IMG/VR virus record: IMGVR_UViG_3300000226_000003
Span: 1-40,272 of that record
Source: a virus
Reading direction: 5' to 3' (one strand)
DNA: 40,272 bases
Made by a program: the position numbers and the translations under genes. The notes under the pieces are model-generated. The model saw only the letters and a list, made by a program, of their open reading frames with translations, was not told the DNA's origin and ran no database searches. Every line of letters begins with the position of its first letter. Within the stretch, counting starts at the first letter, position 1. This document shows positions 9,377 to 38,465 of the stretch, in pieces.

Positions 9377-9689
9377 ACCTTTACCAAATGGAATAACAAT
9401 AGGACAGTCCAAAATTGAAGGAATTGGTTTAATTGCAACCAGAAATTTTGATAAGGACATTGTATTGGGCATCGCTCATATTGCGAATAAGAATTTTCCA
9501 CATGGGTATATACGCACTGCATTAGGAGCTTTTTATAATCATAATAATAATCCAAATTGTAAAACAATGAATGGATTTTGGCATCAAATTCCTGTTAAGT
9601 ATCTCGTTACGATTAAAAAAATTCAACCTAATGATGAATTAACAGCAGAATATTCTTTATATGTAGTAGAGGAAGATAATTGGGAATGA
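9369..9689 (+). CDS. SET-domain protein (putative protein methyltransferase)
   Basis: A minimal 106-aa SET domain. Residues 12-33 (S-x-IEGIGLIATRNFDKD) match the N-terminal SET strands. NHNNNPNC (57-64) corresponds to the NHS/C SAM-binding motif, and DELTAEY (89-95) to the catalytic (G/D)EELTxxY motif with its Tyr. SET proteins methylate lysines with SAM; pre- and post-SET parts are absent. It lies between the novel-family gene (8-base overlap) and a radical SAM gene (ATGA overlap), suggesting shared work on one target. Confidence 0.8.
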   Translation: MYRPLPNGITIGQSKIEGIGLIATRNFDKDIVLGIAHIANKNFPHGYIRTALGAFYNHNNNPNCKTMNGFWHQIPVKYLVTIKKIQPNDELTAEYSLYVVEEDNWE

Positions 9690-10765
9690 ACATAATAGCT
9701 CTAAATAAAGAATTAAATATTGATGATTTAAATCAAACTACAGAAATAGAATTAACATTTGATAATATATGTAACTTATCTTGTAGTTATTGTGATAGTT
9801 CCAAAAGTTCATCATGGGCCCTTAATATAAATTTGAATGGTGCTTTTAATTTACAAACAAGTAATTTATATAATGAAGTTTTTGAGTTTGATGGGCGGTT
9901 AATTCAAAAAAACTTAATTAAATTTATTAGTTGGTGGCATAATAATAGTAATCAAGTAACAGTACTCAAGATAAATGGTGGTGAACCAATATTATCACAA
10001 TATTTTTGGAAATTCATTCATAATATTTCAAAATCCCCTAATCCAGAATTAAATTTAATTATTGTATCCAATTTAGTCTATGATCCTGGCCAGCTTGATA
10101 AGTTATATGATGTAAGTGATAAATTTAAATCTATACAAATAATAGCAAGTATAGATGTCAATAATGGTATTTGCGATTTTTTAAGAGCAGGCGGCGGTTA
10201 TTTAAGACAGAAAAATAATATTATGAGATCACTTGGTGCACCTATTAATTGTTTTCTTACATTGCAAAATGTTATTAGTGTATTTTCTGTTTGGTATTAT
10301 AGTTCATTTATAGAGTATAATATAGAATTAAGAAAACACAGTTCAACTTCAAGATTTGATAGTTTAGAAGCACTTTTAAATCCTAGTGAATGGTCACGCT
10401 TTGCAACGATCCCAGGCAATCTTAGACCTTTTAGTAGTATTATATTAACATCTCCGTCTTTTCAAAGTATATTAATGTTACCTACACATTTAAGAGAATA
10501 TTTGTATGAAGATATATTTACTACATATAGTTCTCTAAAAAGTGAGTTACATAAACCAGATAAAAATACCATTATTAGATGTTTAAATTATATCCAATCT
10601 GCTAAATTTCCAGATAATCTGGAATCAAATAGATTAAGTATGGAACGAGATCTTAAAAAATTTATAATCGAATATGAAAAAATAGTTCGTAATGACGATA
10701 AAGAATTCACATCAATATCTTCTATATTTCCTAAAGTATTTGTAGATTGGCTGGATACTATATAA
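9686..10765 (+). CDS. Radical SAM protein
   Basis: C29, C33 and C36 form the CxxxCxxC motif (CNLSCSYC) that binds the [4Fe-4S] cluster of radical SAM enzymes. INGGEP about residue 97 is the second signature (GGEP, SAM contact). At 359 aa it resembles SPASM/twitch-type peptide-modifying enzymes, but the C-terminal part lacks the multiple Cys of a SPASM domain. The ATG at 9686 overlaps the stop of the SET gene (ATGA); the TTG two codons earlier is not needed. It is the last gene of the cassette. Confidence 0.85.
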   Translation: MNIIALNKELNIDDLNQTTEIELTFDNICNLSCSYCDSSKSSSWALNINLNGAFNLQTSNLYNEVFEFDGRLIQKNLIKFISWWHNNSNQVTVLKINGGEPILSQYFWKFIHNISKSPNPELNLIIVSNLVYDPGQLDKLYDVSDKFKSIQIIASIDVNNGICDFLRAGGGYLRQKNNIMRSLGAPINCFLTLQNVISVFSVWYYSSFIEYNIELRKHSSTSRFDSLEALLNPSEWSRFATIPGNLRPFSSIILTSPSFQSILMLPTHLREYLYEDIFTTYSSLKSELHKPDKNTIIRCLNYIQSAKFPDNLESNRLSMERDLKKFIIEYEKIVRNDDKEFTSISSIFPKVFVDWLDTI

Positions 10766-11614: not shown

Positions 11615-12261
11615 TGGTAAAGAAGGTAGCATTTTGTATAGGCAATGGTCAATCTCGTAAGGGGTATGATCTAGAGAAATTACGGGACGTTGGTCCATTA
11701 TATGGCTGTGGCGCAATTTGGCGTGACCATCACGTGGATAATTTAATTTGTTGTGATAAATTTAGAGCAAAAGATGCCGCAGAGCATCACGTAGAAATGC
11801 GTTCAAATTTTTATACGCGAGTAGATTATATCCCACATTTAGAGGCAGTAGGTATTAAACCACTGCCATCACTTCCTTATTTTGGATTAGAACCGCATGA
11901 ACAACCTTCAGGTTGGGATAGTGGTTTATATGCTGTACATACCGCTATACACGAAAAAGCAGATGTAATAATGTTGCTTGGTTATGACTTTTATGGTTGG
12001 GGTAAAAATCAAAGTAGAGTTAACAACATATACAAGAGAACAAAACATTATAATAAAGAGAAAAAACCACGTGATCCAATTACGTGGATTAACCAATTTC
12101 AATTGTTGTTTAAAACGCATTATACAGTAACATTTATTTTTATTAAACCTGAAAATTATCCACATCCGCCAGAGTTTGACTCGTGGAGGTATGTATTGTT
12201 TGATACGTATGAGGGATTGGATAGGTTTGCTAGTAAAAAACTAGACGATATACACAATTAA
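11614..12261 (+). CDS. Putative glycan-transfer / DUF115-like protein
   Basis: The N-terminus VAFCIGNGQSRKGYDLEKLRD, then PLYGCGAIWRD, resembles a Rossmann-like family seen in phages and in sialyltransferase-like or DUF115 proteins (GNGxS near the start). IMLLGYDFYGWG lies in the middle. It may handle a nucleotide sugar, but catalytic residues cannot be named. Late box spacing (6 bases) supports the ATG at 11614. Its stop codon shares the palindrome TTAA with the stop of the convergent gene (12258-12261). Confidence 0.5.
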   Translation: MVKKVAFCIGNGQSRKGYDLEKLRDVGPLYGCGAIWRDHHVDNLICCDKFRAKDAAEHHVEMRSNFYTRVDYIPHLEAVGIKPLPSLPYFGLEPHEQPSGWDSGLYAVHTAIHEKADVIMLLGYDFYGWGKNQSRVNNIYKRTKHYNKEKKPRDPITWINQFQLLFKTHYTVTFIFIKPENYPHPPEFDSWRYVLFDTYEGLDRFASKKLDDIHN

Positions 12262-13889
12262 AGTTGTGGTGTAGTTTCTTCTTGATCAGCAGGTATTTCG
12301 TGTTTTGCGGCCGCTTGTTCCTTATCAAGTTTTTCCCAATCAGCAAGCTCTTTAAGTAATGGACCCATTTCTACAACATTACGTATAGCGGTTTCGGCCC
12401 AGTTAGTTCTAAATCTGACCAATCTTTCTTTTGTTGTAAACCCTGGTGGGTTACCACCAACAGGGGCACCATATATAATAAGTTCGTGCATTTTAGCACC
12501 AATTTTACTGTTTATTTTTAAATTATATCCTTTAAGTGCTTTCAGTAAAGGTTCACCAAATTGTAATTCGTAATATGCTTTTTTAGCAGATGGACTTAAA
12601 ATAACCATATAAACGCCTTCTTCTCTTCTAGTGGCATGATAATTTATTGCATCCCATAGTTGTTCAATAAATTTTGCTTCTTTTGTTTCATTATCGCCCG
12701 CTAACATTGCATTTATTTGAGTTACTGCTTCACTATATGCTTGCCCAATTGGAGAATTGGTACCTTTATTAGCACCATAATTATAATTTCTAATTTCAGT
12801 AGCACTCATATTTGGACGATTTCCTGAATCTGCAAATTGCCACTTTTGCTTTTTATCGTCTGAAAATTGAACTCCTACATGGTTAAAGAATTCTTGTATT
12901 TTTTCAAATGAAGCACCACTTACTTGACCAAATTGCTCAACTGTTTGTGCTTTAAGACTGATTAAGTTCAAATATTTTATTTGTTGTCCACCATAGTAAA
13001 TTTTCAAATCTACTTTTGTAGATTTTTGATTTGATGCATCTGCTCCATCACTTGCTACTAGTATTTGTTTTTTTACTTGATCGCTGTATGCATGTTCAAT
13101 AGCTTGTTTAACTCTAGGAGAAGATAATCCATAAAGTGCCGCATCTAACCACATTTGATTCAGAACCTTTAGTCTTTCTTTAGCTACACCTAGTTTACTT
13201 AATGCGTTTCCTTCTTCTAATACGCCACCTGTCTCCACTAATGCTTTAAATACCATACCATCAGCTCTAGGTAAAGATAAGTTAAATTTTAAAGGATCCA
13301 TTGGTTTTGCATCTGTTTGTATTTCTATTTCTAAGTTTTCATTTTGAATTAGTTTTTTTGCAAGTTTTTGTGATTCTGATGCTAATTGTTCTTGACTCCA
13401 AGTCGGATTACCTTGTTCATCATGTAATTTTGTGCCTTGTTTAAAACAAACAGACATTACACAACCCATAATTGCTTCTGCTACAGATCCTATAGTCCAT
13501 TTAAGTGACCCAGTAGAATGTTCATCTTTTACTATATTGCTAATATAGATATTTTGCCACCCACCTTGGTCGTTTTGGGCGGTAAGTGCTTCTTCTCCAG
13601 AGTCTGTTTGTACTTCAAGTTTAACTTCAGCTGCTTGTGCTAAATCACCTGAGTCAAGTATTGCATTTAAGTCTCTTCTAACTCTTTTGGGATTTAGAAT
13701 TCTGCCGTGTATAATATGCGGAGGAATCTTACCACTCCATTTACCACCACCTATATTAAAATTATACGTTTGATTAGCACCAATGCCTTTAATGAGATTT
13801 TTAATGTATTGACCATCGTGTTTTTTTACTTCAGACGCCGTCATTGTTTTGACCATGTCTGCTTCAATTAAAAATTCATGATACTTCAT
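12258..13889 (-). CDS. Candidate packaged internal head protein with possible nuclease signature
   Basis: The 543-aa protein begins MKYHEFLIEA, strikingly like the T4 capsid-targeting peptide MKTYQEFIAEA. LIE before A10 fits the (L/I)xE cleavage site of the T4 gp21 prohead protease. This predicts loading into the capsid and injection with the DNA. Further in, Glu138 (SVAEAI), Asp294 (KVDLKI) and SLK at 311-313 are arranged like a PD-(D/E)xK nuclease core, a weaker inference. The start overlaps the stop of the upstream gene (TAATG), and both share a late promoter. Confidence 0.7.
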   Translation of the reverse strand: MKYHEFLIEADMVKTMTASEVKKHDGQYIKNLIKGIGANQTYNFNIGGGKWSGKIPPHIIHGRILNPKRVRRDLNAILDSGDLAQAAEVKLEVQTDSGEEALTAQNDQGGWQNIYISNIVKDEHSTGSLKWTIGSVAEAIMGCVMSVCFKQGTKLHDEQGNPTWSQEQLASESQKLAKKLIQNENLEIEIQTDAKPMDPLKFNLSLPRADGMVFKALVETGGVLEEGNALSKLGVAKERLKVLNQMWLDAALYGLSSPRVKQAIEHAYSDQVKKQILVASDGADASNQKSTKVDLKIYYGGQQIKYLNLISLKAQTVEQFGQVSGASFEKIQEFFNHVGVQFSDDKKQKWQFADSGNRPNMSATEIRNYNYGANKGTNSPIGQAYSEAVTQINAMLAGDNETKEAKFIEQLWDAINYHATRREEGVYMVILSPSAKKAYYELQFGEPLLKALKGYNLKINSKIGAKMHELIIYGAPVGGNPPGFTTKERLVRFRTNWAETAIRNVVEMGPLLKELADWEKLDKEQAAAKHEIPADQEETTPQL

Positions 13890-14197
13890 TAATTCTTTGC
13901 GCCTTGTTGTGCTTTATTCAATTTATCTTTCAAATCCTTAGCATAGTCTTTACCAGACTGTTCTAAATTAGGATCTACTTTTCCGGTAGTAATAGTTGTG
14001 CCCAATGCTTTGTTAAATTTTGTTTCATCACTTGGTTCTGCTTTATCAGGACCTTGCTCTGTATTTTGTTCTGCTTTATTCACTAGTTGTTGCCCGGCGT
14101 CACGCACTTGTTTATTCAAAGGACTAACAGCCTTAGGACGGTTATGAGAAATCGTGCCTTGTGGTGTTTCTTCTATAAGAATTTCAGAAATTTTCAT
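13889..14197 (-). CDS. Candidate small internal head protein
   Basis: The 102-aa protein begins MKISEILIEE, with LIE at residues 7-9, matching the capsid-targeting peptide plus prohead-protease site of T4 internal proteins. The rest is polar, rich in Gln, Asn, Lys and Glu and low in hydrophobics, as expected for a small packaged protein. It is the first gene of a minus-strand pair with the 543-aa protein. No enzyme motif is visible. Confidence 0.65.
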   Translation of the reverse strand: MKISEILIEETPQGTISHNRPKAVSPLNKQVRDAGQQLVNKAEQNTEQGPDKAEPSDETKFNKALGTTITTGKVDPNLEQSGKDYAKDLKDKLNKAQQGAKN

Positions 14198-14220
14198 AAT
14201 ACTACCATATTTGTTTTCTA

Positions 14221-14228
14221 TATTTATA
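14221..14228 (-). promoter_or_regulatory. Late promoter, full TATAAATA octamer (minus strand)
   Basis: On the minus strand TATAAATA is followed by a 23-base gap to the ATG at 14197. It drives the two internal-head-protein candidates. Confidence 0.7.
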
Positions 14229-14279
14229 CTATCTGTTAGTTAAAAATAGTTTTGCTATTAAGTCGGAGGGATTGTAAAC

Positions 14280-14285
14280 TAAATA
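14280..14285 (+). promoter_or_regulatory. Late promoter box TAAATA upstream of prkA
   Basis: TAAATA, then a leader with CAGGAG (14295-14300) and the ATG at 14309. It is the only late box visible before the PrkA-family gene. Confidence 0.6.
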
Positions 14286-14308
14286 TACATAACACAGGAG
14301 CGTGATAC

Positions 14309-16249
14309 ATGGTAAGCAAATTACTTAAAGAGTATTCTTCTAACTATCAAAGTAAAAAAGAGATAGAAATAACATTAGAAGAATATTTAACATTATGTAA
14401 GAAAGATCCATTGGCTTATGCTACATCTGCTGAACGCATGTTAGCAGCTATCGGAGACCCAGAACACGTCGATACTTCAGAAGATTCAAGATTGTCTCGT
14501 ATATTCTTGAATAGAACATTAAGAGTTTTCCCAGCATTTAAAGATTTTTATGGATTAGAAGATACAGTTGAACGAATTGTAGGCTTCTTTAAACACGCCG
14601 CGCAAGGATTGGAAGAACGCAAACAAATATTATATTTGCTTGGTCCAGTAGGTGGCGGCAAGAGTTCTTTAGCAGAACGACTAAAAGAACTAATGGAAAC
14701 ATATCCAATATATGTTCTTAAAGCAGGCGATACAATTAGTCCTGTGTATGAAAGTCCGTTATCATTATTTGATCCAGAAGTATATGGTGACCAACTTGAA
14801 AAAGAATATAAAGTGCCAAAACGTTATCTCACCGGCTTGTTAAGTCCGTGGGCAATTAAACGTTTGGACGAATTTGACGGAGATATTACTAAATTTTCCG
14901 TAGTTAAATTACAGCCTAGCAAATTAAAGCAAATTGCTGTAGTAAAAACAGAACCAGGTGATGAAAATAACCAAGATATAAGTGCTCTAGTAGGCAAAAC
15001 AGACATTCGCCAATTAGAATACTTTTCACAACATGATCCAGATTCATATGCATTTAGTGGTGCATTGTGTAAGGGCAACCAAGGCCTTATGGAGTTTGTA
15101 GAAATGTTTAAAGCACCAATTAAAGTGCTACATCCACTATTAACTGCTACACAAGAAGGCAACTACATGGGCACAGAAGGTATTAGTGCTATCCCATTTA
15201 GTGGCACAATTTTAGCACATAGTAATGAATCAGAATGGACATCATTTAAAAACAACAAAAATAACGAAGCGTTTTTAGATCGTGTATATGTTGTTAAAGT
15301 TCCTTATTGTTTGCGTATAGATGAGGAAATTAAGATTTATGATAAGATGCTAACATCTAGTGGATTAGCAAATCATGCGTGTGCCCCACAAACACTAGAT
15401 ATGTTAGGACAGTTTTCAATTTTAAGCAGATTACTTGAGCATGAAAACAGCAATTTGTTTTCCAAAATGCAAGTGTATAATGGTAAGAACTTAAAGGATA
15501 CGGATCCGCAAGCAAAGAGTCTACAGGAGTATAAAGATACTGCTGGAGTAGACGAAGGCATGTCAGGTTCATCGACACGTTTTGCTTTTAAGATTTTATC
15601 TCAGACATTCAACTTTGACACAGCGGAGATAGCCGCTGATCCAGTACATCTAATGTTTGTATTGGAACAAGCGATAAAACGCGAGCAATTTGGTGAGGAA
15701 AAAGAAAAAGCACTCATTTATTATATTAAAGAGTGGCTCTCGCCAAAGTATGCTGATTTTATCGGCAATGAAATACAGAAAGCATATTTAGAAAGTTATA
15801 GTGATTATGGACAAAACTTGTTTGATCGTTATATTCAATATGCTGACCATTGGATACAAGAGATAGATTTTAAGGATCCTGATACAGGCAACCTCTTTAA
15901 TCGTGACGTATTAAACGACGAACTAGAGAAAATAGAAAAGCCAGCAGGCATTGCTAACCCTAAAGACTTCCGTAGTGAAGTAGTCAACTTTGTTCTACGC
16001 GCTAAAGCAAAGAACAAAGGTAAAAATCCAAAATGGTCAAGTTACGAGAAACTACGTGAAATTATAGAGAAGAAAATGTTTGCGTCTACAGAGGAATTAC
16101 TTCCAATTATTTCCTTTGGTAATAAGCAAAATAAAGATGATCAACAAAAGCATGACGATTTTGTAGAGCGTATGGAGTCAAAAGGCTATACAGAACGTCA
16201 AGTGCGCCGCCTCGTGGAGTGGTTTATGCGGACCCAGAAGTCAAGTTAA
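14309..16249 (+). CDS. prkA: PrkA-family AAA+ serine kinase/protease-like protein
   Basis: The 646-aa length matches cellular PrkA (about 640 aa). GPVGGGKSS (112-120) is the Walker A motif, and the PrkA-type AAA+ core runs to about residue 400. Typical PrkA blocks are the arginine-finger region (NNKNNEAFLDRVYVVKVPY) and SGSSTRFAFKILSQTFN. The C-terminal segment is the PrkA kinase-like domain. Cellular PrkA (YeaG) works with YeaH and YcgB in starvation and stationary-phase responses; Bacillus PrkA has been described as a Lon-like protease. The same three genes follow one another here, with a homing gene between the first two. Confidence 0.92.
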   Translation: MVSKLLKEYSSNYQSKKEIEITLEEYLTLCKKDPLAYATSAERMLAAIGDPEHVDTSEDSRLSRIFLNRTLRVFPAFKDFYGLEDTVERIVGFFKHAAQGLEERKQILYLLGPVGGGKSSLAERLKELMETYPIYVLKAGDTISPVYESPLSLFDPEVYGDQLEKEYKVPKRYLTGLLSPWAIKRLDEFDGDITKFSVVKLQPSKLKQIAVVKTEPGDENNQDISALVGKTDIRQLEYFSQHDPDSYAFSGALCKGNQGLMEFVEMFKAPIKVLHPLLTATQEGNYMGTEGISAIPFSGTILAHSNESEWTSFKNNKNNEAFLDRVYVVKVPYCLRIDEEIKIYDKMLTSSGLANHACAPQTLDMLGQFSILSRLLEHENSNLFSKMQVYNGKNLKDTDPQAKSLQEYKDTAGVDEGMSGSSTRFAFKILSQTFNFDTAEIAADPVHLMFVLEQAIKREQFGEEKEKALIYYIKEWLSPKYADFIGNEIQKAYLESYSDYGQNLFDRYIQYADHWIQEIDFKDPDTGNLFNRDVLNDELEKIEKPAGIANPKDFRSEVVNFVLRAKAKNKGKNPKWSSYEKLREIIEKKMFASTEELLPIISFGNKQNKDDQQKHDDFVERMESKGYTERQVRRLVEWFMRTQKSS

Positions 16250-16265
16250 GTATTATAATGCGAGT

Positions 16266-16271
16266 TAAATA
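16266..16271 (+). promoter_or_regulatory. Late promoter box TAAATA of homing endonuclease
   Basis: TAAATA followed by 5 bases and the ATG at 16277, with no ribosome site between. The box gives the homing gene its own leaderless late transcript inside the prkA operon. Confidence 0.6.
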
Positions 16272-16276
16272 CTATC

Positions 16277-16798
16277 ATGCATAAACATCATATTATACCA
16301 AAACATATGGGTGGCACTGATGATTCCTCTAATATAGTTAAGCTGTCTGTGGAAGATCATTCACTTGCTCATAAAGCACTATATGAACAACACGGCCACT
16401 GGGAAGATAAACTTGCTTGGCGGGCGTTATCTGGTATTATTGCTAAAGAAGACGTTATACTTGAGCTACAACGCGAAGCAGGGCGTAGAGTAAAATCCCC
16501 TGAAGAGCGAGCAAAGTTAAGTAAAAGTTTAACGGGCAGAACAGCATCTTTAGAGCATAGGGCAAATATAAGTAAAGGCTTGAGACTCAAGCATAGCCTA
16601 CGCCCAACATCTGCTGAAACAAAAGCAAAGATGGTAAAGGCTCATACTGGATATAAACACACACCCGAAACAAAAGAAAAGCTCAGCCTAATTGCTTCAA
16701 AAAGAATACCATCAGAATCAACTAAGAAAAAAATCAGTGAATCAATGAAAGCCTATAGAAAATCGCAACGAGATGATTCATGCCCAAGCATATTATAG
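16277..16798 (+). CDS. HNH homing endonuclease with NUMOD3-type repeats
   Basis: The 173-aa protein opens with HKHHIIPKHMGGTDDSSN followed by HSLAHKALYEQHG, the classic HNH fold of free-standing phage homing nucleases. The C-terminal half has three or four short basic repeats of the NUMOD3 type (SPEERAKLSKSLTG, SAETKAKMVKAHTG, STKKKISESMK) that bind DNA. It lies between prkA and the DUF444 gene, whose start overlaps its last 19 bases. It is a mobile gene that cuts uninvaded DNA and spreads by repair. Confidence 0.88.
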   Translation: MHKHHIIPKHMGGTDDSSNIVKLSVEDHSLAHKALYEQHGHWEDKLAWRALSGIIAKEDVILELQREAGRRVKSPEERAKLSKSLTGRTASLEHRANISKGLRLKHSLRPTSAETKAKMVKAHTGYKHTPETKEKLSLIASKRIPSESTKKKISESMKAYRKSQRDDSCPSIL

Positions 16799-18165
16799 AT
16801 AGGCGGCAGAATCCTAAAGGTAAAAACTTATCTAATAGACAGAGATTCATAAAACGCTCTAAAAAGCATCTTAAAGAGAGCATGGATGAAGCCATGAAGA
16901 CTCGTTCTGTAAAGGATTTAAAGTCTGGCAGCCGTGTTCGTGTGCCTTCCAAAAGTATTAAAGAGCCACAGTTTAATTATGATCCTAAATCAGGACAGAA
17001 AGATTATATACTGCCAGGTAATCAAGAATACTTACAAGGTGATAAAATACGTAAACCATCCTCTGGGCAAGGCGGTAGCGGCGGCCAAGAAGGATCTGAT
17101 GATGCGTATGGGGAAGACGATTTTGTTTTTTCTATTAGTAGAGATGAATTTCTAGACATATTATTTGAGGATTTGGAACTACCAAACCTCAAAGAAAAGA
17201 AAAAGAAAAGTATAGAGGAGTTTACTACTCGTCGTTCTGGCTATGTTAATGAGGGTTCTCCTAATAATTTAAATCTTGAGCAAAGTATGATACGCAGTAT
17301 TGGTAGACGTATTGCTCTTAAAAAACCTAAAGGAAAACGTATAAAGGAACTTGAAAAACGATTAGAAGAACTTATAGAGGAAAGAAAACCGCTTGTTGCT
17401 ATTATAGAGAAGTATTCTTTTAATAAACAGGCAAGATGTAAAGAAGCATCTTTATTAAAAGAAATTGATGATGAGATTGTAGAGATAGAGGCAGAGATTA
17501 AAAAAATAAGAGCACGTTATAATGCTATCTCTTTTATTGACCCAATTGACTTAAAATTTAATAACTTTACTAAAGTTCCAAATCCTAAAAATGCCGCTGT
17601 TATGTTTTGTATATTGGATGTATCAATATCGATGCAAGAGCGTGAGAAAGATTTAGCAAAACGCTTCTTTATTTTATTACACTTGTTTCTTAGTATGAAG
17701 TATGATTTAGTAGAAGTAGTGTTTATACGACACCACACAACTGCTAAAGAATGCACAGAGGAAGAATTTTTTACTAGTAAAGAAAGTGGCGGTACTGTAG
17801 TATCTACTGCACTAGATTTAGCATATGATATTATTAGAAAGAGATATGATTTGGAATATTGGAATGTTTATGTAAGTCAAGCAAGTGATGGTGATAACTT
17901 TACTACTGATAATCAGCAAGTACATAATACTATGGAAACTAAATTATTACCATTAGTTCAGTTTTTTGCGTATGTTAGTATTGTAACACATCAACACCAA
18001 GTCAATAATGATATAGGTTTATCTGTAGGAAGTGGTTTAGAAAAAATATATAAAGTATTAATGGATGCTTTTGAGTATGTGCAAATACGTAGAGTGTATG
18101 AACCAAAAGATATATATCCTGTGTTTAGAAAATTCTTTGCGCCGAAAGGAGAAAATGATGAGTAA
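16780..18165 (+). CDS. yeaH: DUF444 / YeaH-YhbH family protein
   Basis: The 461-aa protein starts with IIDRRQNPKGKNLSNRQRFIKR, the typical DUF444 beginning. It has the Gly-rich acidic linker (SSGQGGSGGQEGSDDAYGEDDF), a charged coiled coil at about 190-240, and a von Willebrand A-like domain with DVSISMQEREK near residue 285. Cellular YeaH partners with PrkA (YeaG) and SpoVR (YcgB). The start lies within the 3' end of the homing gene, so the mobile gene now supplies its upstream sequence. SpoVR begins inside its last codons. Confidence 0.92.
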   Translation: MPKHIIDRRQNPKGKNLSNRQRFIKRSKKHLKESMDEAMKTRSVKDLKSGSRVRVPSKSIKEPQFNYDPKSGQKDYILPGNQEYLQGDKIRKPSSGQGGSGGQEGSDDAYGEDDFVFSISRDEFLDILFEDLELPNLKEKKKKSIEEFTTRRSGYVNEGSPNNLNLEQSMIRSIGRRIALKKPKGKRIKELEKRLEELIEERKPLVAIIEKYSFNKQARCKEASLLKEIDDEIVEIEAEIKKIRARYNAISFIDPIDLKFNNFTKVPNPKNAAVMFCILDVSISMQEREKDLAKRFFILLHLFLSMKYDLVEVVFIRHHTTAKECTEEEFFTSKESGGTVVSTALDLAYDIIRKRYDLEYWNVYVSQASDGDNFTTDNQQVHNTMETKLLPLVQFFAYVSIVTHQHQVNNDIGLSVGSGLEKIYKVLMDAFEYVQIRRVYEPKDIYPVFRKFFAPKGENDE

Positions 18166-19801
18166 ACCTTTATATGAACCAAAAAGTGACTGGAGTTTTG
18201 ATCTTATTTCTAAAATATATGATGCGTGTGAAGAAATAGCAATTAATGAACTTGGTTGTGATTGTTATATTAACCAATTAGAAGTAGTAACATTTGAACA
18301 AATGTTAGATGCTTATGCTAGTATTGGTATGCCGTTATCTTATAATCACTGGAGTAATGGTAAAGCATGGGCACATTATGAGAACCAATATAGAAAAGGT
18401 AGAACAAGTTTAGCATATGAGTTGGTTATTAATAGTAATCCTTGTATTAATTATTTGATGGAAGAAAACTCGATGACTACACAAACGTTAGTCATTGCAC
18501 ATGCCGCGTTTGGACATAATCATTTCTTTAAGAATAATTATTTGTTTAAAACATGGACAAGTGCTGACAGTATTATTGACTATCTATTATTTGCTAAAAA
18601 TTATATACAAAAGTGTGAGGAAAAGTATGGACTTGATGAAGTAGAACTTTTCTTAGATTCCCTACATGCAATACGCAATTACGGAATAAACAAATATAAA
18701 CGTCCTGACAAATTAAATGTCACCGTAGAAGCAGAGAAAGCACAAGAACGAGCAACATATTTACGTAAACAAGTAAATGAACTATGGGATACTACAGTTA
18801 TTCCAAATAAAAAAAATACAGAAGAAAAAGAACAAAGAGTTAGTATGGCAAAGCCGGAAGAAAATATAATTTACTTTTTAGAAAAACATGCTCCTAATTT
18901 AACTGATTGGCAACGCGAATTATGCCGCATAGTGCGTAAAATTGCTCAATATTTTTATCCACAAGGGCAAACAAAAGTAATGAACGAGGGATTTGCTTGT
19001 TTTGTGCATTATTACTCAATGAATAGATTGCATGAGAAAGGATTAATTACTGATGCGGCAATGTTTGAGTTTTTAAGATTACATACTAATGTATTAAATC
19101 AACCAACATTTGATAAAAAATGGTATAATGGTATGAATCCTTATTCACTAGGTTTTGCTATGTTTATGGATATTAAACGTATGTGCGAACATCCGACAGC
19201 AGAAGATAAGGAATGGTTTCCTGATATTGCTGGTGGTGATTGGAAAGAAATTATTTTAGATGCTGTTGCTAATTACAGAGATGAAAGTTTTATACTGCAA
19301 TTTCTATCACCTAAAGTAATTAGAGATTTTAGATTATTCCAACTCGGGGATAACAAGTCAGATCCACATTATAAGGTTAAAGCAATTCATAATGATAAAG
19401 GATATAAAAGTATACGCAAAGAGATGGCACGTCAGTATGATTATAATTATCGTATACCTGATATACAAGTTGTTGATTATGATCATGATGAGAAGCGTTC
19501 ATTACTATTGCATCATTATAAAGGACCAAGTCAAAGAGAGTTGTCAAAGGACACAACAATTGAAGTATTAAATTATATTGCTTACATTTGGGGTTATGAG
19601 ATACAATTAGATGTATATAGTAAGCAAGAAAAATTTATTGATGGTGAGTCAGTAGGTGATCCATTTCAGAAAGTAAATGGATATAAATCTACTTCTACTG
19701 ACGGGACATCGCCACCACCAGAAAAAGTTCCTGCAAAGAATTTTGGTTACTGGGGAATGTGTTTAACATCAGACAACTCTGAAACCATTGACAAATCATA
19801 A
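18158..19801 (+). CDS. spoVR: SpoVR / YcgB family protein
   Basis: The 547-aa protein aligns by eye with SpoVR over its whole length: SDWSFDLISKIYDACEEIA at the start, PLSYNHWSNGKAWAHYE, the histidine-rich AHAAFGHNHFFKNNYLF, NEGFACFVHYY, and NPYSLGFAMF later. AAAGGAG (18145-18151) places the start at 18158, or the ATG just before it at 18155. It overlaps the DUF444 stop. SpoVR is linked to Bacillus spore cortex formation and, in Gram-negatives, to the PrkA stress module. The last 30 residues are Pro/Ser-rich. Confidence 0.92.
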   Translation: MSKPLYEPKSDWSFDLISKIYDACEEIAINELGCDCYINQLEVVTFEQMLDAYASIGMPLSYNHWSNGKAWAHYENQYRKGRTSLAYELVINSNPCINYLMEENSMTTQTLVIAHAAFGHNHFFKNNYLFKTWTSADSIIDYLLFAKNYIQKCEEKYGLDEVELFLDSLHAIRNYGINKYKRPDKLNVTVEAEKAQERATYLRKQVNELWDTTVIPNKKNTEEKEQRVSMAKPEENIIYFLEKHAPNLTDWQRELCRIVRKIAQYFYPQGQTKVMNEGFACFVHYYSMNRLHEKGLITDAAMFEFLRLHTNVLNQPTFDKKWYNGMNPYSLGFAMFMDIKRMCEHPTAEDKEWFPDIAGGDWKEIILDAVANYRDESFILQFLSPKVIRDFRLFQLGDNKSDPHYKVKAIHNDKGYKSIRKEMARQYDYNYRIPDIQVVDYDHDEKRSLLLHHYKGPSQRELSKDTTIEVLNYIAYIWGYEIQLDVYSKQEKFIDGESVGDPFQKVNGYKSTSTDGTSPPPEKVPAKNFGYWGMCLTSDNSETIDKS

Positions 19802-19821
19802 ATTATATAGTAGAATTAACG

Positions 19822-19839
19822 TTAACTATAAATAGTTAA
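19822..19839 (+). promoter_or_regulatory. EF-G late promoter TATAAATA (19827-19834) in a 7-bp inverted repeat
   Basis: TTAACTA-TAAA-TAGTTAA is a perfect dyad centred on the full late octamer TATAAATA. GTGGAG (19847-19852) lies 7 bases before the TTG start at 19860. Confidence 0.7.
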
Positions 19840-19859
19840 ACCTTTCGTGGAGCAGAAAC

Positions 19860-21959
19860 TTGTCTTTAAACAATTATAGAAACATTGGTATCTTCGCACA
19901 TGTGGACGCGGGTAAAACTACGACTACTGAGAGGATCCTTAAGCTCACAGGAAAGATACACAAAATTGGTGAGGTACATGATGGCGCCGCAACCACAGAC
20001 TTTATGGAGCAAGAGCAAGAGCGAGGCATTACAATACAAAGTGCCGCGACTACTTGCTACTGGAAAGACCACCAATTAAACATCATCGACACCCCTGGGC
20101 ATGTAGACTTCACTATTGAAGTCTATCGTTCCCTTAAGGTGTTGGATGGTGGCGTTGGTGTATTTTGTGCAAGCGGTGGCGTAGAGCCACAATCCGAAAC
20201 TAACTGGCGTTATGCTAACGACAGCGAAGTAGCACGTATTATATACATTAACAAGATGGATAGAGTAGGTGCTGATTTTAATCGTGTTGTAGCACAAATA
20301 AGAACACGACTTGGTGCGAAGCCGTTAATTATGACATATCCAATTGGAGCGGAAGATAAATTCGTAGGTGTAGTTGATATACTTACTCAAAAGGCTTGGA
20401 TATGGTCAGATTCTACTGACCCAACTTCTTACACTATAACTGACATCCCAGATGATAAAGTACCTAGTGAGAAAATAGGTGACAAGTATACATATAAAGA
20501 AATGGCAAAACAACATTATGATATATTAGTTGAGACAGTTGTTGAGCAAGACGATGAAGTTATGATGCAATGGATAGATGATCCAGATAGCATTAGTGAA
20601 GAAGATCTTAAAATGTGTATACGTAAAGGTACTAATACTTGTGAGTTCTTTCCAACGTATTGCGGCAGTTCATTTAAAAACAAAGGCGTACAAAACATAT
20701 TAAATGCTATTGTAGATTATTTGCCCAATCCTACCGAAGTTGACCCACAACCAATAGTAGATGACACTGGTGTAGAAACAGGTGAAGTTGCTACGGTAGA
20801 TGCAGAAGGGCCGTTGCGGGCACTTGCATTTAAGATTATGGAAGACAAATATGGCGCACTAACATTTACACGCATTTATTCAGGCAACATGAAGAAAGGT
20901 GACTCCATATACAATAGTACAAATGGTAAAACAGAACGTGTTGGGCGTATATTGGAAATGCATGCCGACTCGCGTGAGGAATTGGACAGTGCATCAGCAG
21001 GTGACATTGTTGCATTGCTTGGTATGAAGTCTGTACAAACAGGCCATACATTGTGTGATAAAAAGAACCAAGCAATACTTGAACCAATGGTATTCCCAGA
21101 TCCAGTTATTAGCATAGCAATTGAACCAAAGACACAAAGTGATATGGACAAGTTAGGAACTGCTATTGGTAAAATGGTAGCAGAGGATCCTTCCTTCCAT
21201 GTAGAGACAGACCAAGAAACTGGCCAAACAATACTTAAAGGCATGGGCGAGTTGCATTTAGATGTTAAGTGCGATATACTAAAACGCACATACGGTGTGG
21301 AAGTAAGCATAGGTAAACCACAAGTAGCATATAGGGAAACAATTACTAAAACAGTCAGTGATAGGTATACCCATAAAAAGCAAACAGGTGGTGCAGGCCA
21401 GTTTGCTGATATTGAATATACTGTAGAACCTCTTGAAGCAGGAGAGGGATTCCAATTTGAAAGCAAGGTAGTTGGCGGCAATGTTCCAAGAGAGTTTTGG
21501 ACTTCTATAGAGAAGGGATTTGCAGGCTCCAGTGCAGATGGTATACTTGCAAGTTACCCAGTGCTTGATTACAAAGTAACATTAACAGATGGTTCCAGTC
21601 ACGCAGTAGATAGTAGTGCTGTGGCATTTGAGCTGGCGGCTCGCGGAGCATTTAGACAAACAATGCCCAAAGCAGGTCCGAAGTTATTAGAGCCAATTAT
21701 GAAACTAGACGTTACTTGCCCCGGAGACAAAGTAGGTGATGTTATAGGTGATATAAATAGGCGTAGAGGCATGATACACAATCAAGAAATGGCTGGCACA
21801 ACGGTTCGTATATACGCAGAAGCACCAATTGGTGAAATGTTTGGGTATATAGGAGACTTACGCAGTCAAACAAGTGGTCGTGGTCAATTTAGTATGGAAT
21901 TTAGTCATTATGCGCCGTGTCCTAATAGCATTACTGAGGTTATCTTAAAGAAAACTTAA
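19860..21959 (+). CDS. fusA: Translation elongation factor G (phage-encoded, full length)
   Basis: The 699-aa protein has every EF-G hallmark: P-loop AHVDAGKT (13-20), switch I RGITI (55-59), DTPGHVDF (77-84) and NKMD (131-134). [12 protein letters not shown] is the domain IV loop, [11 protein letters not shown] carries the His at the tip of domain IV that enters the ribosomal A site, and domain V has RRRGMI and SMEFSHY. EF-G moves tRNA and mRNA through the ribosome and helps recycle ribosomes. The start is TTG, set by a GTGGAG site. There is no sign of decay, so it is probably functional. It directly follows the PrkA trio but has its own late promoter. Confidence 0.95.
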
Positions 21960-21982
21960 AACACCATATATCTCCCTCTTAA

Positions 21983-22002
21983 ATCACTCTAAATATAGTG
22001 AT
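21983..22002 (+). promoter_or_regulatory. Late promoter TAAATA (21990-21995) in loop of a 6-bp inverted repeat
   Basis: ATCACT (21983-21988) pairs with AGTGAT (21997-22002), and the 8-base loop CTAAATAT holds the box. An ATG lies exactly 5 bases downstream (22001), in frame with a better start at 22019 that has GGAGG. Confidence 0.6.
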
Positions 22003-22018
22003 GAAATGGAGGATTTAT

Positions 22019-22222
22019 ATGATTCATTGTAAATCGTTGATTAAGACTATAAGTTGGAGATGTATCGCTACTACAGATACATTTCTTATTGCCTGGTTAA
22101 TTACTGGAGAGTATACTTTCGCAGGCGCAATAGCAGGACTAGAAGTATGTACTAAAATGGTACTCTATTACCTCCACGAGAGAGGATGGGCTAGAATCAA
22201 GTTAGCGAAAAATGGAACATAG
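22019..22222 (+). CDS. DUF2061-family small membrane protein
   Basis: The 67-aa protein begins with CKSLIKTISWRCIATTDTF, matching DUF2061 (K-x-ISWR-x-x-A-x-x-TF). Two membrane segments follow (about 14-30 and 37-55). DUF2061 members are small inner-membrane proteins of unknown role. I choose the ATG at 22019 because GGAGG lies just before it and the family starts at this point. The in-frame ATG at 22001, which fits the leaderless spacing, would add six residues. It overlaps the next gene by 11 bases. Confidence 0.75.
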   Translation: MIHCKSLIKTISWRCIATTDTFLIAWLITGEYTFAGAIAGLEVCTKMVLYYLHERGWARIKLAKNGT

Positions 22223-22814
22223 AACCTGTCACAGACGAGGATACGAACTTTTGACTCCCAACATTTGGGAATTATATGATGGAATGGAGTCAAAAGGTTT
22301 CGTAAAAAATTTTAAAAATGACGAATCGGTTCCACCGAAGTATAAAGTTGTTGGGCATCCTGATTTAGATAGAACGGTACTGCCTAAAGGTAGCGTTATA
22401 CAAATGCACACTATAGAGGACGAGTTCCCACTAGGCCTAGAAGGTCCTGAAGTACATGAGATATTGGATACCAAAGAAGAAACAATTCAAACCTTATATG
22501 AAAAAATACAAACATTGCGCGACGAATGTGGCGAAATGGATATACAAATAAAACAATTACAACATGAACTAAAACATAAAAAGCCAGGTGGTTCCATACG
22601 ATGGAAGCTTACTTATACTTGGTGTGATAATGTAACAGAAGTATATTGGGATTTTAGAACTAAGAAACAAGCTGTAGCATATATGGAAGACAACATAAAA
22701 GGTTTCTTCGGCATTAAGGTAGTTGAATCAATTAAGGATGTAAAATATGACAAATACATATATGGAACACGTGGAGTAAAACAAGATGAAACTAGCATTA
22801 CACAAAAGAAGTAA
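22212..22814 (+). CDS. Hypothetical protein with central coiled coil
   Basis: Not recognised. Of 200 aa, residues 93-122 form a heptad-rich coiled coil (EETIQTLYEKIQTLRDEC and on). The N-terminal part is polar, and the C-terminal part (about 128-185) is a small alpha/beta domain with several Trp and Tyr. It overlaps the DUF2061 gene at its start and the small basic peptide gene at its end. Confidence 0.65.
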   Translation: MEHRTCHRRGYELLTPNIWELYDGMESKGFVKNFKNDESVPPKYKVVGHPDLDRTVLPKGSVIQMHTIEDEFPLGLEGPEVHEILDTKEETIQTLYEKIQTLRDECGEMDIQIKQLQHELKHKKPGGSIRWKLTYTWCDNVTEVYWDFRTKKQAVAYMEDNIKGFFGIKVVESIKDVKYDKYIYGTRGVKQDETSITQKK

Positions 22815-22899
22815 ATATTTTGCTGTTACTAGGCGAAATAAACGTCGTGGTAAGAATCGCCTTAAGACTAAAAGTCGTAACAGTAGATCTACTACATAA
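22786..22899 (+). CDS. Very basic 37-aa peptide
   Basis: ATG at 22786 with GTGGAG 9 bases upstream; stop at 22897-22899. It begins MKLALHKRSKYFAVTRRNKR, and 15 of its 37 residues are Arg, Lys or His. Composition resembles small ribosomal proteins or DNA/RNA-binding peptides, but it matches none that I know. It overlaps the preceding gene by 29 bases in another frame, and its stop codon is part of the late box of the following gene. Confidence 0.6.
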   Translation: MKLALHKRSKYFAVTRRNKRRGKNRLKTKSRNSRSTT

Positions 22900-22902
22900 A
22901 TA
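22897..22902 (+). promoter_or_regulatory. Late promoter box TAAATA
   Basis: TAAATA overlaps the stop of the basic peptide. A 5-base spacer leads to the ATG at 22908. Confidence 0.6.
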
Positions 22903-22907
22903 TTTTA

Positions 22908-23432
22908 ATGAACGTCAAAATTAGCTTATCTGGCTTCTTTTGTAATACATGGCCAGATTGTGTTGTAGTTTGTAATGGTCATACAATATTCCAGGATAAA
23001 ATTATCAATGATAATATAATAGATTTTACTATTGATTTTTCTGCTGACAATTTATTAACAATAGGTATGACTAATAAGTTAATGGGTGAAAATAGTGTAT
23101 ATGATATTTTGTTAGATGCACATAATAATATTATCGAGGACAAGTATATTAAAGTAAATGATATACTTTTTGATGATGTTAGCGTGGATAACTTAATACA
23201 TGAATTTGTTTTTATTAAAGATTCTAATGAAAAAATATCAACATCTGGTAATATTAATTATAATGGTAGTATACATATCCCATTTCAACAACCAATTTAT
23301 GATTGGTTAATACAAGAAAAATATATTAAAAAAGAAATACAAGAAACTAATTATCAAGGTTTTGGTAGTTGGAATAATAAATTTAATTATGATGTACAGG
23401 ATTTAATTAAAAAGTTAGAAACAATTGTATGA
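22908..23432 (+). CDS. Beta-rich hypothetical protein paired with radical SAM gene
   Basis: The 174-aa protein is probably a beta sandwich in its first two thirds: alternating strands around KISLSGFFCN, NLLTIGMTNKLMG, and DKYIKVNDILFDDVSVD. The pattern (I/L)TIGMxNK ... DKxIxVxxIxxDDVxV recalls a carbohydrate-binding-like fold. The C-terminal third is polar. Its stop overlaps the ATG of the B12-type radical SAM gene (ATGA), so the two are translated together from one late promoter. Confidence 0.6.
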   Translation: MNVKISLSGFFCNTWPDCVVVCNGHTIFQDKIINDNIIDFTIDFSADNLLTIGMTNKLMGENSVYDILLDAHNNIIEDKYIKVNDILFDDVSVDNLIHEFVFIKDSNEKISTSGNINYNGSIHIPFQQPIYDWLIQEKYIKKEIQETNYQGFGSWNNKFNYDVQDLIKKLETIV

Positions 23433-24802
23433 AGATTGCACTTGTACAACTCCCCAAATATTCTATAGATAGACCCCCTATGACACTTGCTGTTTTAACC
23501 AGTGTTATTAAAAATAATTTTGATTATGATATTGAGTGCTATGATTTATCATTAAAACTTTATCAAGATATTGAAAGAGAAGATTTCTATGAGATTGAAG
23601 ACTATTTAGAACATAATATATATAAATCTTCTGTAGATATATTGACAGATAACTTTTCTATATATGCTATAGAGATAAAAAATTGTGATTTAATAGCAAT
23701 AAGTGTTTTTAGTGATGCATCATGTCGAGCATGTGAAGTGCTGTGTAAGGAATTAAAAAAGTATAATTGCAAAATTGTTATTGGTGGACAAGGTTTGGCT
23801 AACGAAAACTGGTGTAAAAATATGTCTGATGCCAAGTTAATAGATGATTATATAGTAGGGGAAGGAGAATATACATTTGTAAATTATTTAAATGGTTTAC
23901 AAGGACCTGGTATAAACAATCATAATAATGAACAAATAGATGATTTAGATTTATTGCCTATTCCTGATTATAGTTTATTAAATTTGAATGATTATAATCT
24001 TAAGGAATTATATGTTACTGGTTCTCGTGGATGTGTACGCAAATGTACTTACTGTGATGTTCCTTTTTTATGGAAAAAATATAGATATCGCTCTGGCCAA
24101 CATATTGCTAATGAGTTAATACGACATTATGAGAAAAGTGGTATTACTGGCTTCTGGTTTACTGATAGTTTGGTCAATGGCAGTCTTAAACATTTTAGAG
24201 AATTTTGCTATGCTTTAGAGAAATACTATGAAAATAATAACGTAAGATTTACTTGGAAGGGACAGTATATTTTTAGACGTATGAATCAGTTAAATGAAGA
24301 ATATTTTAGAATGATATCAGCAGCTGGTGGTAGTGAATTTTATGTAGGATTAGAAACTGGTAGTGACAAAATACGTTGGGAAATGGATAAAAAATTTACT
24401 AATGAAGATGCAACCTATCATTTAGAGATGTTTAAAAAATATAAAATAACTTGTTTATTGCTTATGATTAGTGGTTATATAACAGAAACAAATCAAGATC
24501 ATTTAGATACAATGGCTATGTTTAAAAAATGGCAGAAATTTGTTGCATCAGGAACAATTACTGGCATAGAGTTAGGCAATACGTTAAGTATACTAGAAAA
24601 TACTCCTTTAGAAGAAGAAAATTTAGAGTTTGTTATACCAGGTGACAAGCATAGTTGGCACATTAAAGATAATACATATCAAGTACGTGTTAGAAATAGG
24701 TTAGAAATAACTAAAGAAGCGATGAAGTATCATTGGCCAATTACCAATAATCGTTTTAGATTAAAAACCTTTATTGCTAAATTAGAGCAATATTATATAT
24801 AA
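23429..24802 (+). CDS. B12-binding-type radical SAM protein
   Basis: The 457-aa protein has an N-terminal cobalamin-binding-like Rossmann domain (IALVQLPK, LIAISVFSDAS, CKIVIGGQG, DYIVGEGEYTF). A radical SAM core follows with C202, C206 and C209 in GCVRKCTYCD. The typical EFYVGLETGSDKIRWEM and KYKITCLLLMISGY come next. Such enzymes methylate or rearrange unreactive carbons. The DxHxxG cobalamin motif is not evident, so B12 itself may not bind. It is coupled to the beta-rich gene upstream. Confidence 0.85.
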   Translation: MKIALVQLPKYSIDRPPMTLAVLTSVIKNNFDYDIECYDLSLKLYQDIEREDFYEIEDYLEHNIYKSSVDILTDNFSIYAIEIKNCDLIAISVFSDASCRACEVLCKELKKYNCKIVIGGQGLANENWCKNMSDAKLIDDYIVGEGEYTFVNYLNGLQGPGINNHNNEQIDDLDLLPIPDYSLLNLNDYNLKELYVTGSRGCVRKCTYCDVPFLWKKYRYRSGQHIANELIRHYEKSGITGFWFTDSLVNGSLKHFREFCYALEKYYENNNVRFTWKGQYIFRRMNQLNEEYFRMISAAGGSEFYVGLETGSDKIRWEMDKKFTNEDATYHLEMFKKYKITCLLLMISGYITETNQDHLDTMAMFKKWQKFVASGTITGIELGNTLSILENTPLEEENLEFVIPGDKHSWHIKDNTYQVRVRNRLEITKEAMKYHWPITNNRFRLKTFIAKLEQYYI

Positions 24803-34289: not shown

Positions 34290-34297
34290 TAAGAATG

Positions 34298-34380
34298 CCC
34301 CCGTGGCGGAACGGCAGACGCTGTTGACTTAAAATCAATTTCCGATAGGAGTGCTGGTTCGAATCCAGCCGGGGGCACCA
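34298..34380 (+). tRNA. tRNA-Leu (anticodon UAA)
   Basis: Acceptor GCCCCCG pairs with CGGGGGC, followed by A and an encoded CCA. The anticodon loop is CTTAAAA (TAA). A long variable arm gives 83 bases (class II). It lies apart from the main tRNA array. Confidence 0.92.
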
Positions 34381-34387
34381 AATTAAT

Positions 34388-34732
34388 ATGAAAAGAATAC
34401 TAACATTATATTTCACGTATAAAGGACTCAGTGGTTTTGAGATTGACCAATACGTGCCATTTACTACTGCGGTGGTAAATGATGATTCAGAATACGAATT
34501 CACACAACAATGGCTTGCTAATATTTTGGATGCTCGCCTTAAATGTGACCAGGATATATCAAGTTTTGTTATAACTGAAACAGAAGAAACTGACGAAGAA
34601 GCCGCGAAGCAAACAGAAAACCTTGGTGTTTTTGTTGAGCACCAAAAGAAAGTAATCCCTAAACCCGAAGGTAACATTGTTACCGTAGATTTTGGAAAGA
34701 GAAATGGACCCGACGACACAAAAGATAATTGA
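34388..34732 (+). CDS. Hypothetical protein, 114 aa
   Basis: Not recognised. It starts 7 bases after the tRNA. The N-terminal half is alpha/beta with several aromatics (LTLYFTYKGLSGFEIDQYV); the C-terminal half is acidic then basic. It overlaps the SWIM protein gene by 29 bases. Confidence 0.6.
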   Translation: MKRILTLYFTYKGLSGFEIDQYVPFTTAVVNDDSEYEFTQQWLANILDARLKCDQDISSFVITETEETDEEAAKQTENLGVFVEHQKKVIPKPEGNIVTVDFGKRNGPDDTKDN

Positions 34733-34937
34733 TCATTACAGAGCCATTAGCAAAGAGATGATGGATCGTGTTGCGGCAAGTCAGGTTAAAGTAGTTCCGC
34801 CTGAATTATTTGCAACATATGAATCAGGATCAGTGCAGGGACTTATGTATAAAGTATATAAGGATTGGAAGGATAATTTAACTTGTAATTGTCCGGGTTT
34901 TGTTTACAGGAGAAAGTGCAAGCATATAAGCAGTTGA
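34704..34937 (+). CDS. Small SWIM-type zinc-finger protein
   Basis: The 77-aa protein ends in CNCPGFVYRRKCKHI, which matches the SWIM zinc finger CxCx(n)CxH. SWIM fingers bind DNA or proteins and occur in recombination and transposition factors. The N-terminal part is a simple helix-rich linker. The ATG at 34704 is chosen over an upstream TTG. In this module it may assist DNA repair or replication. Confidence 0.75.
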   Translation: MDPTTQKIIDHYRAISKEMMDRVAASQVKVVPPELFATYESGSVQGLMYKVYKDWKDNLTCNCPGFVYRRKCKHISS

Positions 34938-34945
34938 TTATATAC

Positions 34946-34974
34946 TTGACAAAATTAGTAAAATGCAGTATCAT
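34946..34974 (+). promoter_or_regulatory. Sigma70-like promoter, leaderless
   Basis: TTGACA (34946-34951), a 17-base spacer and TATCAT (34969-34974). The ATG at 34981 is 6 bases downstream. Confidence 0.65.
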
Positions 34975-34980
34975 AATAGT

Positions 34981-35136
34981 ATGAAGAACCCTCGCCGCAA
35001 GACGAGATTCGCTCGTGTTCTGTTTGAACGCGATAACCCTTACTCTCAGAAAGTTGAACGTAAGAAAACCGCTTATACTCGTCGTGCCAAGCACAATCAC
35101 GAATATAAGCAAGAACTAGGAGACTATAATGTCTGA
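34981..35136 (+). CDS. Small basic protein, 51 aa
   Basis: MKNPRRKTRFARVLFERDNP at the start, then RRAKHNHEYKQE: about one third basic residues. It resembles the short basic proteins of unknown function common in phage early regions (DUF7230-like in pattern, by memory only). It starts right at its promoter and its stop overlaps the next gene by 8 bases. RNA or DNA binding is likely. Confidence 0.65.
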   Translation: MKNPRRKTRFARVLFERDNPYSQKVERKKTAYTRRAKHNHEYKQELGDYNV

Positions 35137-35669: not shown

Positions 35670-35672
35670 GTT

Positions 35673-36414: not shown

Positions 36415-36433
36415 TAACAAGAGACTAAAAAAA

Positions 36434-37848: not shown

Positions 37849-37856
37849 TTAACAAC

Positions 37857-37931: not shown

Positions 37932-37947
37932 AAGAGGAAATAAAATA

Positions 37948-38217: not shown

Positions 38218-38220
38218 TCT

Positions 38221-38298: not shown

Positions 38299-38303
38299 TA
38301 TTG

Positions 38304-38387: not shown

Positions 38388-38390
38388 AAT

Positions 38391-38464: not shown

Positions 38465-38465
38465 T

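Follow-up and report, generated by a model that had tools for sequence, protein, structure and literature searches.

Organization of the prkA-yeaH-spoVR locus

The 40,272-bp IMG/VR virus record IMGVR_UViG_3300000226_000003 (the window, meaning this whole stretch of DNA) carries within positions 14309–19801, all on the plus strand, homologues of the cellular genes prkA (yeaG), yeaH (DUF444) and spoVR (ycgB), none of which contains an internal stop codon. Analysis of the encoded proteins against Pfam reveals matches over nearly the entire length of the family models: AAA_PrkA (E-value 5e-173, model positions 1–358 of 358) and the PrkA C-terminal domain (2e-67, 2–255 of 255) for PrkA, DUF444 (4e-150, 1–416 of 418) for YeaH, and SpoVR (1e-155, 1–404 of 407) together with SpoVR_C for SpoVR. 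As the catalytic residues are present as well (Table 1), the sequence-only reading of this DNA that preceded our analysis was correct in describing three ordered, full-length genes with intact motifs. The genes are adjacent, ordered and on one strand, as in an operon, but they are not strictly consecutive: the earlier reading overlooked an HNH/NUMOD3 homing-endonuclease-like open reading frame (ORF) that separates prkA from yeaH.

This ORF scores above the Pfam cut-off for NUMOD3 and slightly below it for HNH, matches the homing endonuclease family phrog_655 (E-value 1.8e-16) and overlaps the start of yeaH by 19 nt. It is a recent mobile guest, because two contigs whose PrkA is 97% identical to that of the window (L005 and L006) lack it and have a prkA-yeaH gap of only 9 nt. 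Similar HNH signals lie inside a widened prkA-yeaH gap in L061 and L065; the junction has therefore been invaded repeatedly. Concerning spoVR, the 578-residue ORF listed from position 18065 is too long, the likelier start being the ATG at 18158 that follows GGAG; the resulting 8-nt overlap with yeaH suggests coupling of the two genes.

Table 1. Features of the prkA-yeaH-spoVR locus and its immediate neighbour in the window
Feature	Position	Strand	Remarks
prkA/yeaG homologue, 646 residues	14309–16249	+	AAA+ domain and PrkA C-terminal domain, full-length by Pfam; PDB relative 9xip
PrkA Walker A GPVGGGKS, residues 112–119	14642–14665	+	
HNH/NUMOD3 homing-endonuclease-like ORF	16277–16798	+	Pfam, phrog_655; mobile guest outside the machine proper
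yeaH/DUF444 homologue, 461 residues	16780–18165	+	C-terminal vWA domain; Pfam, AlphaFold2 model
YeaH MIDAS D280-x-S282-x-S284	17617–17631	+	T339 at 17794–17796, D370 at 17887–17889
spoVR/ycgB homologue, 547 residues	18158–19801	+	Pfam SpoVR and SpoVR_C; ATG preceded by GGAG
SpoVR HAAFGH, residues 118–123 (counted from 18149)	18500–18517	+	First half of proposed metal site
SpoVR NEGFA, residues 279–283 (counted from 18149)	18983–18997	+	
EF-G homologue	19860–21959	+	Neighbour, not counted as module member; own promoter-like signals

Domain composition and structure models

PrkA from the window has a solved relative in PDB entry 9xip ("Serine protein kinase", E-value 1.6e-51), and the Walker A residue K118 as well as the sensor Asn and the Arg residues are conserved. 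K118 and K428 correspond to two residues of E. coli YeaG, K116 in the Walker A motif and K426, each of which is reported to be required in vivo (PMC4664914). For PrkA of B. anthracis, an AAA+ protein, both kinase and protease activity in vitro are described as negligible (PMC13001217).

In the AlphaFold2 model of YeaH (predicted local distance difference test score, pLDDT, 81.6), the C-terminus takes the form of a vWA domain whose metal-ion-dependent adhesion site (MIDAS) is intact. Indeed, the C-terminal part matches vWA folds with a Z-score of 16.9 and a root-mean-square deviation (rmsd) of 2.6 over 162 residues, Foldseek matches of the model include MDN1-MIDAS and NorQD, and the MIDAS residues (DxSxS, T and D) are complete, being at least 97% identical in the viral and bacterial rows and found in all five divergent phages.

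Sequence searches of the PDB with YeaH and SpoVR returned nothing meaningful. A second-look structural comparison (VIA) of the SpoVR model (pLDDT 85) placed 3o0y on top (Z 12.1, rmsd 3.8 over 201 residues), with LTA4 hydrolase at Z 10.0 and M1, M3, M2 and M32 peptidases also in the top ranks, the matches extending from Z 12.1 to 7; nearly all of these top matches are gluzincins. Residues H118, G122 and H123 of SpoVR are invariant and the motifs HAAFGH and NEGFA are conserved, the latter resembling the third zinc-ligand motif of the M1 peptidases, and together the two motifs resemble both halves of a gluzincin zinc site. The HExxH of the active-site helix is absent, however, as HAAFGH of the window has Ala in place of the catalytic Glu; divergent phages show HVxGH or HATGH, which likewise lack the Glu and have the classical HxxxH spacing. 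Because of this replacement we read the site as degenerate, and we would hypothesize that it is a perhaps non-proteolytic metal site; the model weakly suggests that SpoVR as a whole is a degenerate gluzincin. Moreover, in-frame intein-like inserts of about 130–320 residues split phage SpoVR proteins at three different conserved sites (L068:11436-13856, L071:8139-10379, L241:16444-18345), namely HAA^CGH in L068, NEG^CATF in LR756504 and just before xGMPxxYxHW in L071 and L072. Matches to intein domains are sub-threshold in two of the inserts and absent in that of L068. As inteins favour functional sites, inserts at or beside the SpoVR motifs fit such sites.

Distribution among viruses, age and selection

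The module recurs almost unchanged (~100% identity) in a 322,647-bp contig (L004), which encodes a T4-type major capsid protein gp23 (E-value 6e-97) and a Terminase_6N protein (8e-18). Judged from these two genes, and because its gp23 is nearest to that of jumbo phages of the PA5oct/MIJ3/Paride type (65%; 2,487 phage records matched), the window phage is a myovirus-type, T4-type jumbo phage of which the window represents a 40-kb piece; gp23, large terminase and a genome above 200 kb are found on L004 and not on the window itself. At the DNA level, window positions 12000–24000 have no relative in the phage collection.

IMG/VR was scanned for PrkA (best 80 of 121 relatives) and SpoVR (best 80 of 112), which gave 117 distinct contigs, not every one of them proven viral (L077 and L138 group with bacteria in trees). 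PrkA, YeaH and SpoVR follow one another on one strand in 101 of the 117, the gaps between them having medians of 18 and 13 nt. Contig ends account for 14 of the 16 remaining cases; in L073 SpoVR was not seen in the 6.6 kb after YeaH, and in L156 SpoVR stands alone at its locus while PrkA lies elsewhere on the contig. A third scan with the YeaH alignment (best 80 of 464 relatives) added 77 loci, comprising 51 full trios, 22 with YeaH only, three contig-end cuts and the L073 contig again (L324). The 22 YeaH-only loci are terminal on prophage contigs from isolates, which start within a yeaH-like gene or a few nucleotides before it (L300, L306, L308-L311, L313-L323, L325-L329), and they look like host flank.

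Among 50,697 phage records PrkA is matched in only 16, corresponding to 11 Thermus phage records, four huge metagenomic phages and Enterobacter phage LAU1, of which the last is probably a match to host DNA because the record begins with yeaGH. Taken together, the prophage contigs and LAU1 point to a likely prophage integration site beside the yeaH gene of enterobacteria. In LR745206 the three genes are contiguous; they are spread over ~8.4 kb in LR756504, and divided in LR756502, where SpoVR lies ~245 kb from PrkA-YeaH. As a control, 12 jumbo phages lacking the trio were searched; SpoVR was found in none and PrkA above the cut-off in none. No publication describing the trio in phages came to light, a weak indication as the subscription literature lay mostly outside the search; a word search of the main text of Al-Shayeb et al. 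2020 (PMC7162821) gave no SpoVR, PrkA, DUF444 or sporulation.

Among the best 80 matches, bacterial PrkA proteins reach at most 70% identity to PrkA of the window. After thinning, the rows used for a PrkA tree were 64 from viruses, 3 from huge phages and 45 from bacteria; the Thermus phages, which gave long-branch warnings when included, were left out. It places the window inside an all-viral clade of 35 rows with a Shimodaira-Hasegawa-like approximate likelihood ratio test (SH-aLRT) support of 92, and its starred branches force at least five changes of the viral label, and therefore several transfers. In the joined three-protein tree (46 viral, 34 bacterial and 1 huge-phage row) the window falls in an all-viral clade of 20 rows nested in another of 24, each with an SH-aLRT of 96; the module is therefore an old possession of phages. 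In viruses, the pairwise distances obtained from PrkA, YeaH and SpoVR are correlated (Spearman 0.79–0.87), as expected of three genes that travel together. The ratio of nonsynonymous to synonymous substitution (dN/dS) against L005, L007 and L011 is 0.03–0.12 (PrkA 0.03–0.06, YeaH 0.09–0.11, SpoVR 0.06–0.09); the values against L005 alone (0.055, 0.095 and 0.091, respectively) are safer because dS approaches saturation against the other two, and for L013 and L028, which are more distant and for which dS is saturated, the ratio rises to 0.28. The earlier reading had named two findings that would overturn it, a recent acquisition and relatives with decayed copies; both are thus answered in the negative by intact, co-inherited genes under purifying selection in many phages. 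We are highly confident that phages maintain the trio as a functional module.

Expression signals and neighbouring genes

The proposal that the three genes stand under phage late promoters had to be abandoned. The T4 late promoter TATAAATA occurs five times in the window compared with 8.2 times expected from shuffles, and the copy near prkA (14221) lies on the minus strand before a divergent gene. No coding-strand copy stands before prkA, the absence on which late promoter control of the trio was rejected, and of 111 contigs 4 have the exact sequence in the 150 bp that precede PrkA.

In the window the gene for elongation factor G (EF-G) directly follows spoVR and is preceded by promoter-like signals of its own, a plus-strand copy of TATAAATA at 19827–19834 and TTGACA-17-TAGAAT at 19788–19816. 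The earlier reading had taken this placement as a sign of growth-state control. The adjacency stands for the window, but it does not generalize: EF-G lies within the visible flank in just 13 of the 78 contigs having at least 4 kb after SpoVR, for which reason it was dismissed as a standing partner, and it is hundreds of kb away from the trio in LR745206 and LR756502. The adjacency is lineage-specific.

Upstream of the trio, up to 40 of 112 loci, a clade which we read from the sample set as marine, share a block including tape-measure-like, PAAR and Zeta-toxin/kinase-like proteins; the Zeta-toxin/polynucleotide-kinase-like protein is encoded, for example, at L037:6360-7073. In other lineages the trio stands beside DNA ligase, ribonucleotide reductase, MazG, RtcB, RNA ligase or a PstS-like protein. 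A MazG-like pyrophosphatase (L079:6633-7265) and a PstS-like phosphate-transport protein (L125:2922-3914), both starvation-linked, are each encoded two genes before the trio. Elsewhere, the window contains 12 tRNA genes at 34297–39543, most of them in two clusters, two radical-SAM proteins (9680–10765 and 23429–24802, the latter also matching B12-binding below the threshold), and a ribose-phosphate pyrophosphokinase-like gene (36434–37384) with a weaker match to nicotinamide phosphoribosyltransferase. L010 likewise has a radical-SAM gene, located upstream of its prkA.

Proposed function and alternative explanations

The anatomy of an AAA+ motor, a vWA/MIDAS partner and SpoVR fits a protein-remodelling complex as such, in agreement with one of the roles suggested by the sequence-only reading, and we consider it probable that the trio is an AAA+/vWA/SpoVR remodelling machine; that PrkA, YeaH and SpoVR form a complex is what we infer. 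PrkA would form the AAA+ motor, YeaH would grip or deliver the substrate via its vWA/MIDAS domain, and SpoVR, a probable degenerate gluzincin-fold protein, would bind or process the remodelled protein. The bacterial operon is turned on by guanosine tetra- and pentaphosphate ((p)ppGpp), RpoS/sigma-54 and starvation. Indeed, prkA-vWA-SpoVR of R. etli is reported to be one operon in which prkA was the most (p)ppGpp-induced gene of an array (27-fold) (PMC3188799), and yeaG and yeaH of E. coli affect recovery from nitrogen starvation (PMC4664914). Paride, one of the jumbo phages to which the window phage is nearest by its major capsid protein, is reported to require host relA/spoT and rpoS for replication in dormant cells (PMC10761892). 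The phage copy would then provide this activity under phage control once host transcription is taken over, letting infection proceed in slow-growing or starved cells. That the trio supplies a function for infecting such hosts is put forward tentatively; the whole account, i.e., a phage-owned copy of the bacterial operon acting as a remodelling machine in support of infection of starved hosts, is the one that we favour, though we would stop just short of calling it probable.

Several observations weigh against this account. The position equivalent to K428 is Asp in all five divergent phages, so that the kinase side is not universal and what the proteins have in common is the AAA+ core rather than the proposed kinase Lys. 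The best Foldseek match of the SpoVR model in the PDB has an E-value of only 0.3, the gluzincin likeness being a second-look result. Paride itself has neither SpoVR nor PrkA above the cut-off, so that the lineage link is indirect. The flanking genes vary between lineages, and context therefore does not decide the role of the trio. As to the bacterial counterparts, no clear stress phenotype is reported for the R. etli prkA mutant (PMC3188799), and the E. coli yeaG and yeaH mutants are described as recovering faster, loss of yeaG shortening the recovery lag (PMC4664914); the effect may thus go in either direction. Finally, the ppGpp-hydrolase-like HD_4 domain is above the cut-off in 10 of 21 trio phages against 4 of 12 trio-less jumbo phages, both sets being hand-picked, so that its enrichment was rejected as unpersuasive.

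A more specific proposal starts from the dependence of Paride on host relA/spoT and rpoS. The trio might be a portable part of the host starvation regulon needed by Paride-type jumbo phages in non-growing cells; trio-less phages such as Paride would borrow the (p)ppGpp/RpoS-dependent copy of the host, while trio carriers would bring their own three-part AAA+/vWA/pseudo-gluzincin machine, independent of the alarm state of the host. We regard this version as quite doubtful.

The main rival to remodelling on behalf of infection in slow or starved hosts is a virion-assembly machine, in which the trio, AAA+/vWA and chaperone-like, would remodel or mature a head or tail protein late in infection. 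The Thermus phage Lalka27b has the order portal, minor head protein, vWA, SpoVR-like, PrkA, two small ORFs and TerL, two ORFs likewise lie between PrkA and TerL in phage TMA, and the marine block contains tape-measure-like and PAAR proteins. There is also a precedent in the archaeal virus ATV, whose MoxR AAA+ protein p618 is implicated in viral tail formation (PMC3893208). Yet the neighbours in other lineages (DNA ligase, ribonucleotide reductase, MazG, RtcB, RNA ligase) are not virion genes, the late promoter is absent before the trio, the host operon has no virion role, and ORF28 and ORF30, the SpoVR and PrkA genes of the Ralstonia jumbo phage RsoM2USA, are not among the virion proteins named for that phage, which represent abundant bands only (PMC8504454). 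We hold virion assembly to be unlikely, though well worth keeping in view.

Less likely still is host takeover or counter-defence, by which the machine would extract or inactivate a protein of the host, for instance a defence complex or a growth regulator: an AAA+/vWA set would be suited to dismantling complexes and many of the neighbouring genes are typical of host takeover and nucleotide metabolism, but strong conservation and closeness to the host set would favour the host's own substrate over a fast-evolving target, and no defence-linked neighbour was noticed in the flanks, for which no dedicated PADLOC scan was made. It is very improbable indeed that the genes are passenger DNA, whether recently acquired, decaying or derived from bacterial contigs miscalled as viral. 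Some contigs are perhaps bacterial (L077 and L138), the isolate YeaH-only matches (22 of the 77 new loci) look like host flank at prophage edges, and gp23 or Terminase_6N is above the cut-off in only 18 of 50 tested IMG/VR records (the tail sheath Pfam family, above it in just 3 of 21, is uninformative as a viral hallmark). Set against this are gp23 and TerL on the long contig of the window phage, the low dN/dS, the all-viral clades of the joined tree, and the fact that no internally broken copy was flagged beyond contig-end cuts and in-frame inserts, two SpoVR starts being unresolved (L054 and L055).

Many jumbo phages keep the three genes as a unit, which suggests that the three act together on something important in infection. 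The phage trio offers a short, selectable assay for the function of the operon. To multiply in dormant cells, phages depend on a host function under RpoS and (p)ppGpp, for which the trio is a concrete candidate. The proposed SpoVR metal site, whose motifs are hit by intein-like inserts in separate phages, is open to mutational testing.

Comparison with known systems

An AAA+ motor gene next to a MIDAS-vWA partner is also found in the MoxR AAA+/vWA pairs (RavA-ViaA, NorQ-NorD; ATV p618). Unlike these, the motor of the window belongs to AAA_PrkA: at E-values up to 1e-3, window PrkA matched AAA_PrkA and PrkA only and not MoxR. PrkA constitutes an AAA family of its own, and SpoVR is not known to have a counterpart in MoxR/vWA systems. 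MoxR proteins with vWA partners are described as chaperone-like (PMC3893208).

The likeness of SpoVR to the MA-clan gluzincins (e.g. the M1 LTA4 hydrolase) lies in the second-look structural matches, the NEGxA motif and the paired His; SpoVR differs from them in lacking HExxH and, in most members, in a His spacing that is longer by one residue.

Among phages, the Thermus phages phiYS40, TMA, phiLo, MN1 and Lalka have all three families together and retain the MIDAS and Walker A residues, but their PrkA and SpoVR are only ~22–28% identical, the order is vWA-SpoVR-PrkA, Lys is missing at the 426-equivalent position, and in some (Lalka27b, TMA) the trio lies beside head and packaging genes. The isolate RsoM2USA (MG752970) carries PrkA (ORF30) and SpoVR (ORF28) on one strand, separated by a 1.36-kb gap that fits a YeaH-sized ORF29; the likeness is drawn from the published annotation, in which the genes are annotated singly and YeaH is unnamed (PMC8504454).

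The closest parallel is the bacterial prkA-yeaH(vWA)-spoVR operon (R. etli CH02817-02815; E. coli yeaGH and ycgB), with the same families, the same order and the conserved K116/K426 pair; YcgB, YeaH and YeaG are reported to be co-conserved (PMC2375023). The phage copies differ in forming clades of their own, in the HNH insert of the window, in the occasional presence of EF-G beside the trio, and in that the window gives no sign of ppGpp, NtrC or RpoS control. The trio in phages is a viral branch of this known cellular operon.

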